Source of the DNA: Zoogloea sp.
Lineage (GTDB): Bacteria; Pseudomonadota; Gammaproteobacteria; Burkholderiales; Rhodocyclaceae
Assembly (NCBI RefSeq): GCF_023150065.1
Contig: NZ_JAKLLN010000020.1
Span: 1 to 64,000 of the forward strand
DNA: 64,000 nt
Direction of reading: 5' to 3'
A model generated the notes under the pieces. That model saw nothing but the letters and a program-made list of their open reading frames with translations, had not been told where the DNA came from and searched no databases. The stretch's first letter is position 1. Each line of letters starts with the position of its first letter. Of the stretch, positions 24,313-30,474 are shown piece after piece. Position numbers and translations under genes: made by a program.

Positions 24313-24492
24313 TCAGTAGTGACGCCCGTGGCCGAAGCGCCACGGCAGGGAAGGGGCAATGCGCCGGAACAGGGCGACCCCGACGAGGGCCAGGATGGCG
24401 GGAACCAGTGCCTGGCCGCCCTGGCCGCCGGCCAGCAGTACGCCGACAATGAGACCAACCAGCATCAGGGTGCGGCAGATGAGGCTTTCCAT
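24313..24492 (-). CDS. 59-aa hydrophobic membrane protein (below the ORF-track length cutoff)
   Basis: Manual reading MESLICRTLMLVGLIVGVLLAGGQGGQALVPAILALVGVALFRRIAPSLPWRFGHGRHY*. Confidence 0.6.
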   Translation of the reverse strand: MESLICRTLMLVGLIVGVLLAGGQGGQALVPAILALVGVALFRRIAPSLPWRFGHGRHY

Positions 24493-24590: not shown

Positions 24591-24606
24591 CTGTAATTAT
24601 ATACAG
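24591..24606. promoter_or_regulatory. LexA (SOS) box CTGTAATTATATACAG
   Basis: Exact CTGT-N8-ACAG with AT-rich spacer, 62 nt upstream of the tyrosine recombinase ATG (24669). Confidence 0.75.
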
Positions 24607-24668
24607 CACTCGACGTATGGCAAGCCCTGTCGGGTGAAAAATGCTGCCTGACGGGTAAACTCACGCCC

Positions 24669-25910
24669 ATGAAGGCGAAGAACCCCGACACCAGCGCTCC
24701 TCCCACCCCGCAAGGGCCTGTCCCTGTCCGCCCCCTGGACGAGCTGACGATCCCCCCTGAACTGGACGGGAAGAGCGGCGTTAACAGGGCCGACCCGGCC
24801 CGCCTGCAGATCACGGCGAACACGGACGCCGACGCGATCCGTTGTTTCCTGACCGAGTACGACCGTTCGCCCGGCACCTATCGCATCTACCAGCGGGAGT
24901 GCGAGCGCCTGCTGCTCTGGTCCCTGATCGACTGCGGCAAACCCTTGTCCAGCCTCAATCGCCAGGATTTCGAGGGCTATCTGAATTTTCTGGCGGATCC
25001 CCAGCCAGCCGCCTTGTGGTGCGGCCCCAAGGCGGAGCGCATCACCGAGCGCTGGCGTCCCTTTGTGGGCCCGCTCAGTGAGAGTGCGGTGCTCACGGCC
25101 ATGGCGGCCATCAATTCGCTGATGAGCTACCTGGTGGATGCCGGCTATCTGCTCGGCAATCCCCTTGGGCTGATCCGTCAGCGCCGGCGCAAGATGTCCG
25201 CCGAGGTAAGCGGCCCCCTGCGCGCCGTGGCCAGCACGGAAGAGGTCGACAAGATCGAGCGCTTCCTGGATACGCAGATGTGGCAGGCGGTGACCGACGC
25301 CATCGAAGCCATGCCGAAGGATGCCGAGCGAGGGCGTGACGAATACGAGCGGGCGCGCTTCATCGCGGCAACCCTCTACATGCTGGCGCCGCGTGCCGGT
25401 GAACTGGAGAGCCACCGCATGAACAGCTTTCGGGAAGAGCGTGGCCTGTGGTGGTGGTACGTGGTGGGGAAGGGGGGCAAGAAGGCCAAGGTGCCGGTGG
25501 CCGACGACATGCTCCAGGCCTTGATCCGCTATCGCAAGTATCTGGGCCTGACGGCCGTGCCGCGCCGGGATGATGAGACGCCGCTGCTGGTATCCGTCAA
25601 GAATGGAAGCCCGATCACGGCCCGCCGGCTCAATCAGATTCTGAAGAAGATTTTCAACGCCGCGGCTGACCTGCTGCCGGACGATGCCGAGCACAAGAAG
25701 GAGAAGCTGCGTGCCGCTTCCGCCCACTGGGGGCGCCACACAGGCATCACTGCCAAGCTGGACAGCGGCATCGACGAACGTTTCGTGCAGAAGGATGCCC
25801 GCCACACCGACGCCCGGACAACCCAGCGTTACATCCACGAAGAGGAAGAGCGCTGGCACGAAGAGGCCCAGAAGCAGCGCCTGCGCTGGACGGAAAAAAA
25901 GGCGGACTGA
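24669..25910 (+). CDS. Tyrosine recombinase/site-specific integrase
   Basis: LAPRAGELESHRM, SAHWGRHTGITAKL (HxxR), RHTDARTTQRYIHEEEE (H...Y): catalytic pattern present. Confidence 0.92.
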   Translation: MKAKNPDTSAPPTPQGPVPVRPLDELTIPPELDGKSGVNRADPARLQITANTDADAIRCFLTEYDRSPGTYRIYQRECERLLLWSLIDCGKPLSSLNRQDFEGYLNFLADPQPAALWCGPKAERITERWRPFVGPLSESAVLTAMAAINSLMSYLVDAGYLLGNPLGLIRQRRRKMSAEVSGPLRAVASTEEVDKIERFLDTQMWQAVTDAIEAMPKDAERGRDEYERARFIAATLYMLAPRAGELESHRMNSFREERGLWWWYVVGKGGKKAKVPVADDMLQALIRYRKYLGLTAVPRRDDETPLLVSVKNGSPITARRLNQILKKIFNAAADLLPDDAEHKKEKLRAASAHWGRHTGITAKLDSGIDERFVQKDARHTDARTTQRYIHEEEERWHEEAQKQRLRWTEKKAD

Positions 25911-25940: not shown

Positions 25941-25983
25941 GATCGTAAAATTCAATCCGTGCCAAACAATACGGATTACGACC
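25941..25983. repeat. Inverted repeat ATCCGT-N10-ACGGAT with outer TCGTAA/TTACGA half-elements; candidate KfrA operator or recombination site
   Basis: gATCGTAAaattcaATCCGTgccaaacaatACGGATTACGAcc read directly between integrase and kfrA-like gene. Confidence 0.5.
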
Positions 25984-27176: not shown

Positions 27177-27210
27177 TTAACTTCTGAAAACAGTAATTTT
27201 CAGAAGTTAA
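27177..27210. repeat. Perfect 14-bp inverted repeat TTAACTTCTGAAAA-cagtaa-TTTTCAGAAGTTAA
   Basis: Read directly, within an AT-rich ~150 bp island between convergent genes. Confidence 0.85.
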
Positions 27211-27272
27211 TGTTTGTCGTTGTTTTATTGAGCAAATATTGATTATTTTTAATAAATTTAAAGGCTTAAAGA

Positions 27273-27872
27273 TCATATTTCATGCTCTTTAGAAGCACTT
27301 CCGTGCCGAGTTTGAAGTATGGCCATGCCGCCTTGGCGACGCTGCCTCCAGTAGCCTGAAAGCACCTGCTCTGCCTGATCGGCCCTGCCCTTCAGAATGA
27401 ACTGCCGGAGTTCTTCCTGCAGAGCTTTCGACGGCTGCATGTCCGGGGATTCAAGGAGAGGACCGCATGCCAGCTTGAGACGGGTCACTGCGTCATCGAT
27501 CTGATTGGCCAGATAGGGGTTTCCCGATGCCTGGCAAAGCCCGGGCCAGAACTGGCATCCCTCGTCGGGCGGTCGCCGGGCATCCGCAGCCTGGCGCATG
27601 GCAAAGCCCTCGAGCAGCTCCAGCACATCGAAGAGCTGCGAGACATCCTGACGGGTGGGAGAGGCAACATGGAAGCCCCTTGAATTGAACTCCACCAATC
27701 CGTTCCTGAGCAGGAGGGAAAGCGCTTCCCGGACAGCGCTGCGGCTCACGCCATACGAGGTGGCCAGGCGGTACTCGTCCAGGGTCTCTCCGGGCATGAG
27801 TTCATGCGCGCACATCCGCTCGCACAGGGAATCGGAAAGGACCTCGAACAACGGACGCGGGCGCACAGACAT
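27273..27872 (-). CDS. GntR family (FadR-like) regulator, compact C-terminal domain
   Basis: ELMPGETLDEYRLATSYGVSRSAVREALSLLLRNGLVEFNSRGFHV; RBS AGGAG upstream. Confidence 0.9.
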   Translation of the reverse strand: MSVRPRPLFEVLSDSLCERMCAHELMPGETLDEYRLATSYGVSRSAVREALSLLLRNGLVEFNSRGFHVASPTRQDVSQLFDVLELLEGFAMRQAADARRPPDEGCQFWPGLCQASGNPYLANQIDDAVTRLKLACGPLLESPDMQPSKALQEELRQFILKGRADQAEQVLSGYWRQRRQGGMAILQTRHGSASKEHEI

Positions 27873-28032
27873 GCTTTGTTTCTCCTGACTCAGGATCGTG
27901 GCTACTCAATCAAAGGGTCCTTGGCATCGACCAGTTCGTCCGATGCATCAAAAACACGGGGTGGGCTTGCGTCGGGATCGGTGTTAATCGACGTTTTCAT
28001 CGTCATCGGGAGCACCGATCACTACGCTCATC

Positions 28033-28123
28033 TCGCAATATACGCAGCAGAAAATTTGAAGCCACCCCTGAAAGAGCCGAGTTTTGCAAACACCAGAATG
28101 CGGGATAGCAAATCTTGCGAATG
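28033..28123 (-). promoter_or_regulatory. Putative promoter/operator region of the GntR gene, resembling the prpC promoter
   Basis: Shared 14-mer TCGCAATATACGCA (minus: TGCG-TATATT-GCGA) and upstream TTGCGAATG/TTTGCAAA motifs, as at 38076-38160. Confidence 0.5.
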
Positions 28124-28179
28124 TGCCGGGTTGGTTTTCTGGCGCAGGAACCGGACCGTTGGCAAGGAGAGCCGGATGC

Positions 28180-30474
28180 TCAGCAGCGGCTGGCGCGAAG
28201 GCACTTCGCTGCGGCCACCATGTTGGTCAGCGCCGGCGTCACCTCAGCCCACTGCCGGGTCTTCAGGCCGCAGTCGGGATTGACCCACAAGCGTTCGGCG
28301 GGGATACGTTCGATGGCCTTCTTCATCAGGCCGACAATGTCTTCCTGGGTCGGGATGTTGGGCGAATGGATGTCGTACACACCGGGGCCAATCTCGTTGG
28401 GATACTTGAAGTCGTCGAAGGCATCGAGCAACTCCATGTCGGAGCGGGACGTCTCGATAGTGATCACATCGGCGTCCATGTCCGCAATGGCGGTGATGAT
28501 GTCGTTGAACTCCGAGTAGCACATGTGGGTGTGGATCTGGGTTTCGTCGCGAACGCCATTGGCGGTGATGCGGAAGCTCTCCACGGTCCAGTCCAGGTAG
28601 TCCTGCCACCGGGATTTGCGCAGTGGCAGCCCTTCACGCAATGCGGCCTCGTCAATCTGGATCACCCGGATCCCTGCCCGCTCCAGGTCCAGCACTTCCT
28701 GGCGGATGGCGAGCGCAAGTTGCCTGCATGATGCAGAGCGCAGCTGGTCGTCCCGCACGAAGGACCAGTTGAGGATGGTCACCGGGCCGGTGAGCATGCC
28801 CTTCATCGGCTTGCGGGTGAGGGACTGGGCGTAGGTGATCCAATCGACCGTCATCGGGCGCGGTCGGCTGATGTCACCGAACAGGATGGGCGGCTTCACG
28901 CAGCGGGAACCGTAGGACTGCACCCAACCGAACTGACTGAAAACATAGCCGTCGAGTTGCTCGCCGAAGTATTCGACCATGTCGTTGCGTTCGGCCTCGC
29001 CGTGCACAAGCACATCCAGGCCAAGGGCCTCCTGCTCACGCACACTGCGCGCGATTTCGCTGCGCATAGCGGCCTTGTAGCCTGCCAGATCGAGACGGCC
29101 GGCCTTGAAGTCGCTACGTGCTTGGCGGATCTCCGCCGTCTGCGGAAAGGAGCCAATGGTGGTGGTGGGGAACGCGGGCAGCTTGAGCCATTCAGCCTGC
29201 TTGGGTGCCCGGTTGGTATAGCGGCTTTCCCGCATGCCCATATGGGCATCGATGCGCGCGACAGCGGCCTGGACAGCAGGGTTGGTAACCCGCGGGGAAC
29301 TACGCCGGGCGAGCAGCGCGGCCTGGTTGGAGGTGAGCGCCTCCCGGACGGCTTCACGGCCATCCCGCAGGGCAGTGCCCAGCACTTTGAGCTCATCGAG
29401 CTTTTGCAGGGCAAAGGCCAGCCAGGACTTCACTTCGGCATCCAGCCTCTCCTCACTGCCCAGGTCCACCGGCACGTGCAGCAAGGAGCACGAAGGCGCG
29501 ATCCACAGGCGCTCGCCCAGGCGTTGGGCAATAGGCTCCAACCAGTCGAGCACGGCCGTGAGGTCGGTCTTCCAGATGTTGCGGCCATTGATCACCCCCA
29601 GTGACAGCACCTTGCTGGAAGGCAACAGGTTGAGGATGGGGCCGACATCCTCGCGGCCGTTGATCGCATCGATATGCAGGCCCGCTACCGGCAGGTTGGC
29701 CGCGAGGTACTGGTTTTCAAGAAGCTGGCCGAAGTAGGTGGCCAGCAGGAGCTTGATGCGGCCACTCTTGAGTTCGTGATAGGCCGCGTTGAAGGCATGC
29801 CGCCAGTCGGCATCGAGCTCGGTGACCAGCAGCGGTTCGTCGATCTGCACCCACTCCACGCCCTGCTCCGCCAGGCTGTCCAGCAGCTGGGCATAGACCG
29901 GGAGCAGGCGTGGGAGCAGGGCCAGCTTGTCGGAATCATCCTTGGCCTTGCCGATGGCAAGGTAAGTCACGGGGCCGATGATGACAGGCTTGGCGTTTAC
30001 CCCCCGGGCCCGGGCCTCGGCAAGTTGCTCGAGGAGGCGCGATGCATCGAGCCGGAAACGGGTCTCCGCGGTGAACTCCGGGACGATGTAGTGATAGTTG
30101 GTATCGAACCACTTGGTCATCTCACCGGCTGCCACACCGCTGCAGCAGCGCGCTTGATCGTCGGTGCCCGGGGCCGAACGGCCGCGTGCGACGCGGAAGT
30201 AGTTGTCGAGCACATCCCCCTGGAAGCTCAGCACCCGATCAGGGAGGTTGCCGAGGGTGAAGCTCATGTCGAGGATCTGGTCGTAGAAGGAGAAGTCGCC
30301 CACGGGCACCAGATCGATGCCGGTCTGGTCGGCCCAGTGGCGCTGGCGCAACGCTGTCCCGAGAGCGTTCAGATCGTCCCGTGAGGATTCGCCTTTCCAG
30401 TAAGACTCCAGCGCAAACTTCAGTTCGCGCCGGGCGCCGATGCGGGGAAAGCCGAGATTGTGGATGGTGGTCAT
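28180..30474 (-). CDS. metE: Cobalamin-independent methionine synthase
   Basis: [79 protein letters not shown]. Confidence 0.98.

Follow-up and report, generated by a model that had tools for sequence, protein, structure and literature searches.

A tyrosine recombinase and a dif-type site as a very probable replacement of XerC/XerD in Zoogloea

A tyrosine recombinase gene that is preceded by a LexA (SOS) box raises two questions, namely on which DNA the enzyme acts and which gene the box controls. Such a gene lies in the window, a stretch of 64,000 nucleotides from a Zoogloea genome, and the initial annotation regarded its product as a solitary, possibly DNA-damage-inducible chromosomal recombinase with an unknown target. 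According to the analysis described here, the recombinase is very probably a single-enzyme replacement for XerC/XerD in chromosome dimer resolution, acting on a predicted dif-type site behind its gene, and the box more plausibly belongs to a divergent gene. A literature search found no earlier description of this system and no paper naming Zoogloea together with XerC. The features are collected in Table 1.

Table 1. Features of the window and related features in other genomes (positions without prefix refer to the window)
Feature	Position	Strand	Basis
Membrane-type protein, 59 aa (MESLICRTLMLVGLIVGVLLAGG...)	24313..24492	-	Conserved in Zoogloea, AGGAG before ATG
LexA (SOS) box CTGTAATTATATACAG	24591..24606		Exact CTGT-N8-ACAG, Zoogloea-wide conservation
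Leftward promoter (predicted)	24596..24623	-	-35 TTGCCA 24618-24623, 16 nt, -10 TATAAT 24596-24601 inside box
TAAACT, candidate -10 of a leaderless transcript	24656..24661	+	6-8 nt before recombinase ATG
Tyrosine recombinase, 413 aa, proposed chromosome-dimer-resolution enzyme	24669..25910	+	PF00589, catalytic residues
Inverted repeat AATCCGT-N10-ACGGATT, probable kfrA operator	25954..25977		Symmetric changes in both arms
KfrA_N-type coiled-coil DNA-binding protein, 346 aa	26049..27089	+	PF11740, 1.3e-17
Predicted dif-type recombination site CTTCTGAAAA-CAGTAA-TTTTCAGAAG	27181..27206	+	Extended palindrome 27177-27210; single copy, terminus, breakpoint
Z. ramigera site variant	L305:19413 and L306 (G036:C45:39413-42200)		
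Inovirus prophage between two dif-type sites	L304:7134-14150 (G118:C1:2065134-2072150)		

The recombinase gene and its neighbours

The recombinase matches PF00589 (2.4e-12), and its catalytic pattern is intact as first described, with R242, K268, H353, R356, H379 and Y388 invariant in 17 relatives. It was also confirmed to be chromosomal and not a cassette, phage or ICE integrase, and no phage or ICE genes are visible at the locus. Scores of 59 and 43.5 bits with TIGR02224 and TIGR02225 (cut-offs 335 and 330) place it outside XerC/XerD, and neither the integrase_gron model (24.4 bits against a cut-off of 265) nor a cassette array places it with the integron integrases. A profile search with the recombinase matched XerA, XerD, IntI and XerH. 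The best structural matches of an AlphaFold model (pLDDT 80, pTM 0.51) were XerH-difH, at the top, and Cre, with modest TM-scores. A quick tree set the recombinase apart from XerD (support 88-89, long branches) and among plasmid resolvase-like recombinases, with Tn4401 TnpR outside and a Legionellales plasmid recombinase (Aquicella) beside its clade (support 94).

The gene order holB-pilZ-tatD-ank-[box]-rec-kfrA is fixed in Zoogloea, and in Methyloversatilis the recombinase gene is found at another place, which is constant in most loci compared. The conservation of the recombinase is similar to that of TatD. The description as solitary proved only partly right, as in almost all Zoogloea the next gene is of KfrA_N type; kfrA is present in 23 of 24 genomes of this genus and does not lie beside the recombinase gene in other genera. 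An accessory role of the KfrA_N partner is plausible by analogy because TnpT of Tn4651 has the same domain. The inverted repeat between the two genes was considered as recombination site and rejected, since it is not found behind the recombinase gene in locus L060, where kfrA moved away.

The SOS box and the divergent small gene

The exact CTGT-N8-ACAG reported 62 nt before the recombinase ATG is indeed found at this distance and is the only one in the window, where the bare pattern is expected 0.7 times by chance. Throughout the window's genome, the bare pattern is at background level (23 sites versus 22 in a reversed control), and AT-rich versions with at most three mismatches to CTGTATATATATACAG exceed it (6 versus 1). 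In the same genome, dnaE2 and an integron-integrase-like gene are preceded by AT-rich SOS boxes, and lexA has a close box variant (CTGTATAAAATTACAC) 19 nt 5' of its ATG. The box of the integron-integrase-like gene, a 250-aa ORF with its start near the box, reads CTGTATTTATATACAG (L008, G000:C155:62764-62779). Another near-consensus box, CTGTATATGTATACAG, is part of a longer palindrome and precedes a glyoxalase-like start at the end of a contig (L012:1501-1516, G000:C175:48612).

The box is present at 15 of 15 named Zoogloea loci, and 14 of its 16 columns are invariant in six aligned loci. The intergenic DNA flanking it diverges among Zoogloea and the box is kept, which indicates that it is under selection in this genus. 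Conservation upstream of orthologues, named in the initial annotation as a touchstone for LexA control, thus held for every Zoogloea orthologue but not beyond, as no SOS box was found upstream of orthologues from other genera (65-82% identity).

As in a LexA regulon, the conserved box lies within a promoter, the direction of which is leftward. The single strong site in a promoter scan was TTGCCA-16-TATAAT (11 of 12 matches) on the minus strand. In all 16 Zoogloea loci, the box supplies the -10 (TATAAT or TATACT) of a predicted sigma-70-type promoter that reads leftward and has a -35-like hexamer at a spacing of 16-17 nt, and a conserved GCAAG beside the box is part of this -35 in most loci. 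A leftward ORF of about 57-69 aa with a Shine-Dalgarno sequence (pattern MESLICR...GVLLAGGQG...LVPA...) is conserved across Zoogloea; the protein has two hydrophobic stretches, judged by eye, and the 59-aa form in the window gave no Pfam or PADLOC match. Since the -10 of this conserved promoter falls within the box, SOS control is probably exerted leftward, and the divergent membrane protein would be the likeliest SOS-controlled gene.

The control of the recombinase itself by the box, as originally supposed, was not supported. LexA would in this case repress the recombinase, and the SOS response would raise its level when dimers are frequent. This would be compatible with a role in dimer resolution, and induction would be sensible as recombination gives rise to dimers; the short distance of the box and its conservation in all Zoogloea also speak for it. 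However, the box is built into the leftward promoter in every locus, its distance to the recombinase start varies from 60 to 82 nt whereas that to the leftward -35 is nearly fixed, and orthologues elsewhere have no box. Moreover, the recombinase gene has a putative -10 of its own, as 15 of 16 Zoogloea loci have TAAACT or TACACT 6-8 nt before the ATG, 60-82 nt beyond the box. The position of this hexamer would be appropriate for a leaderless transcript that begins with the ATG, which would put the box at about -63 to -78. Damage induction of the recombinase is therefore rather unlikely.

It is highly unlikely that the box is an old resolution site or an operator of the recombinase and not a LexA site. 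Relatives do carry 9-12-bp inverted repeats with a 6-bp spacer 50-150 bp upstream of the gene, but most Zoogloea loci fit such a geometry with 5-bp arms only, and the conserved block is exactly 16 bp long and resembles the boxes of dnaE2, lexA and the integrase gene in the same genome.

The dif-type site, the terminus and XerC/XerD

Within 300 bp of the gene, no adjacent site common to Zoogloea and Methyloversatilis was found. A k-mer comparison of their 17-kb loci, outside the gene, identified a sole common palindrome, the dif-type site of Table 1, which in the window follows kfrA at 92 bp and the recombinase gene at 1.27 kb. The genome-wide search for recombination sites that had been suggested found a single copy of it in the window's genome, so that the target of the recombinase can now be named as this predicted site.

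For a survey, 200 genomes of the GTDB family were sampled, and genomes with an orthologue of the recombinase at 75% identity or more were classed as Rec+ (16 of 200, some of them fragmentary MAGs). In 14 of the 16, the site is present with no more than two changes, which are confined to the outermost bases of the arms; the other two, the drafts G028 and G169 (92% and 89% complete), contain no convincing site. Matches in Rec- genomes have 2-3 changes, mostly breaking the inner arms, and no comparable symmetric site was found there. The centre of the site varies (CAGTAA, CAGGTA, TAGGTA, CAGGAA, CCGGGA) and the arms are constant, as expected for putative recombinase arms around a crossover region. 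In G184, the site lies 34 bp 5' of the recombinase gene, and a megaplasmid of Variovorax has it (arms CTTCTGATAA) 32 bp upstream of the aligned recombinase start. Many more-distant relatives, several of them plasmid-borne, have their own upstream 9-12-bp inverted repeats with a 6-bp spacer, and the enzyme family seems to use symmetric sites.

Some further arrangements were observed. Burkholderiales recombinases are preceded by perfect 10-12-bp inverted repeats with a 6-bp spacer, which are probable resolution sites (ACGACATTA-N6-TAATGTCGT type; loci L096, L098, L102, L104, L110, L113, L115, L117, L122 and L124). In the Zoogloea locus L152 (G094:C32:47083-48120), kfrA lies 20 kb from the recombinase gene and the site 11 kb further (58808), with kfrA still between the two. 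In Z. ramigera, 14 kb from the recombinase gene, a site variant adjoins a different tyrosine recombinase and a second KfrA_N-like gene, and contig C27 carries a further symmetric copy; these copies possibly mark elements that use the site.

GC skew and KOPS were computed on stretches of genomes, independently of the discovery of the site, and both describe a single-copy intergenic site near the terminus. The cumulative GC-skew maximum lies +0.4 kb (G116), -12 kb (G183), +32 kb (G203) and +46 kb (window contig, G000) from the site, and in G183 and G005, sampled genome-wide, the skew switch was also located at or near the site. The polarity of GGGNAGGG (KOPS) flips across the site in four of four genomes tested (p 2.9e-6 to 3.5e-15), with counts left and right of it of 27/5 and 3/16 (G183), 62/11 and 16/58 (G203), 16/1 and 5/33 (window contig), and 31/2 and 8/19 (G116). 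The KOPS cumulative maximum was found 0.9, 1.2 and 1.7 kb from the site (G183, G203 and window contig, respectively) and 32 kb off in G116, where the polarity is still significant. In an unbiased ranking, without prior choice, GGGCAGGG was the top switching octamer. The FtsK gamma domain is present in 22 of 24 Zoogloea genomes, including all complete ones. Zoogloea and Methyloversatilis differ in how the site is oriented with respect to the replichores.

XerD/XerC, called by TIGR02225 at E<=1e-60 and usually seen as two genes, are absent from 20 of the 200 genomes, all 16 Rec+ among them, as expected for dimer resolution by a single recombinase. They are kept in 180 of 184 Rec- genomes (Fisher p 2.9e-20, which is nominal owing to genome relatedness, so that contrasts within genera are the safer argument). 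The genera g7, g46 and g68 contain both states, and the exchange therefore happened more than once. No XerD above the curated cut-off was found in any of 24 Zoogloea genomes. None of the 16 Rec+ genomes is among the 82 in which a canonical dif-like pattern was present; as this pattern misses many XerCD genomes, the direction alone is informative. The complete genomes G100 and G137 of genus g44 are without XerCD (E<=1e-60) and without a close recombinase orthologue, and other members of g44 possess XerCD; thus, loss of XerCD alone is possible.

The site is also a breakpoint. At eight Zoogloea loci, the DNA to its left is conserved and that to its right is not. The joint itself consists of 25-26 identical bases, and a common stretch on the right (460 bp) was seen solely in the window and L052. 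On this comparison, the region to the right would be an insertion hot spot at the terminus. In the window it corresponds to 27207-30000, and the gene content right of the site was different in every Zoogloea compared. Filamentous phages integrate at canonical dif through XerCD. In Methyloversatilis universalis EHg5, the site occurs twice at a distance of 7.0 kb, and between the copies lies an inovirus with Zot (1.9e-22), coat protein B (1.1e-14) and Rep (1e-16). A search of IMG/VR for phages carrying the site gave 18 contigs. Proteins resembling those of the inovirus or the recombinase were absent from all of them, and at least two of four inspected matches lie inside coding sequence; these matches are probably coincidental and were discarded.

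The exclusivity with XerCD, the single-copy site, its terminus position, the KOPS flip, the catalytic residues and the breakpoint were computed directly. From the sequences, we infer recombinase binding, catalysis, FtsK dependence and a dimer-resolution phenotype. The site has identical 10-bp arms, to which two recombinase monomers would bind. After fusion of sister chromosomes by recombination repair, FtsK, guided by the convergent GGGNAGGG motifs, would juxtapose two copies of the site, and the recombinase would swap strands in the 6-bp centre and so restore monomers. The SOS box, lying between the recombinase gene and the small membrane protein in Zoogloea, would most likely regulate the latter. 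On the best reading, the replacement would hold for Zoogloea and also for Methyloversatilis and scattered relatives, with XerCD displaced several times.

Alternatively, the recombinase could be an integrase left over from an integrative element that was lost or from an integrated plasmid, and the palindrome its att site. This might explain why the nearest relatives are plasmid and transposon resolvases, why the KfrA_N partner is of plasmid type and why a phage lies at the site in one genome, but it is very improbable in view of the synteny fixed per genus, the TatD-like conservation with intact catalysis residues, the strict exclusivity with XerCD and the KOPS convergence on a site at the terminus. 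That the palindrome is merely the transcription terminator of kfrA is scarcely credible: it did score as a terminator-like hairpin (two were found, versus 2.7 expected by chance per region), but it is single copy in the genome, its arms and usually its centre are conserved between genera despite unrelated flanks, and outside Zoogloea it does not lie behind kfrA.

Implications and comparison with known systems

Few bacterial systems are as conserved as XerCD/dif. Here, its apparent repeated exchange could be followed in one family, in which both the enzyme and its site are named and sister species represent the two states. This renders testable by which route an essential site-specific system is replaced, whether its successor stems from plasmid resolvases, and in what way FtsK cooperates with another recombinase. 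In addition, the place at which filamentous phages insert in such hosts is indicated, and a floc-forming genus of activated sludge was found to have a small membrane protein that is probably SOS-induced. Tentatively, a plasmid-type resolvase with its site may have repeatedly taken over dimer resolution in Betaproteobacteria, and the Zoogloea module may have gained a LexA-controlled partner, possibly the small membrane protein (which might be an SOS division inhibitor) or the recombinase itself. If so, damage response and dimer resolution would be genetically coupled in Zoogloea.

Among the known systems, XerC/XerD-dif is similar in the proposed role, the terminus, KOPS, the FtsK gamma domain and a filamentous phage at the site, but has two enzymes and asymmetric arms and is absent from all Rec+ genomes. 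TnpS/TnpT of Tn4651 likewise combines a tyrosine recombinase with a KfrA_N helper, whereas its genes are divergent with the site between them. Homology of the recombinase to TnpS was rejected, as there is no BLASTP similarity, and TnpT and the Zoogloea KfrA are similar only over a 30-aa stretch of the N-terminal domain. Tn4401 TnpR-type resolvases and Burkholderiales plasmid recombinases share 29-40% identity with the recombinase, and the latter also have upstream 10-12-bp inverted repeats with a 6-bp spacer; however, both are element-borne and not chromosomal. XerH/difH and XerS/difSL consist of a single recombinase with a site near its gene, and XerH is the top structural match, but their sites are only partly symmetric (PMC9765430, PMC5357621) and the Zoogloea recombinase is 50-60 aa longer.

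By analogy, the nearest known system is XerL/dif of Legionella, with XerL compared by description only. In C. burnetii, a copy of XerL is found on a virulence plasmid. XerL is a single recombinase that replaces XerCD, with a dif of perfect 10-12-bp arms (PMC9765430), and, set against this description, the Zoogloea site has perfect dyad arms of about 10 bp as well. The active Tyr is at 387/389 in XerL of Legionellales and at 388 in the Zoogloea recombinase, and in both systems dif lies near the GC-skew maximum and is exploited by a mobile element (PMC9765430). The systems differ in their arrangement, as dif and xerL are more than 400 kb apart in L. pneumophila, whereas the site in the window lies within 1.3 kb of the recombinase gene, with the KfrA_N gene between them.
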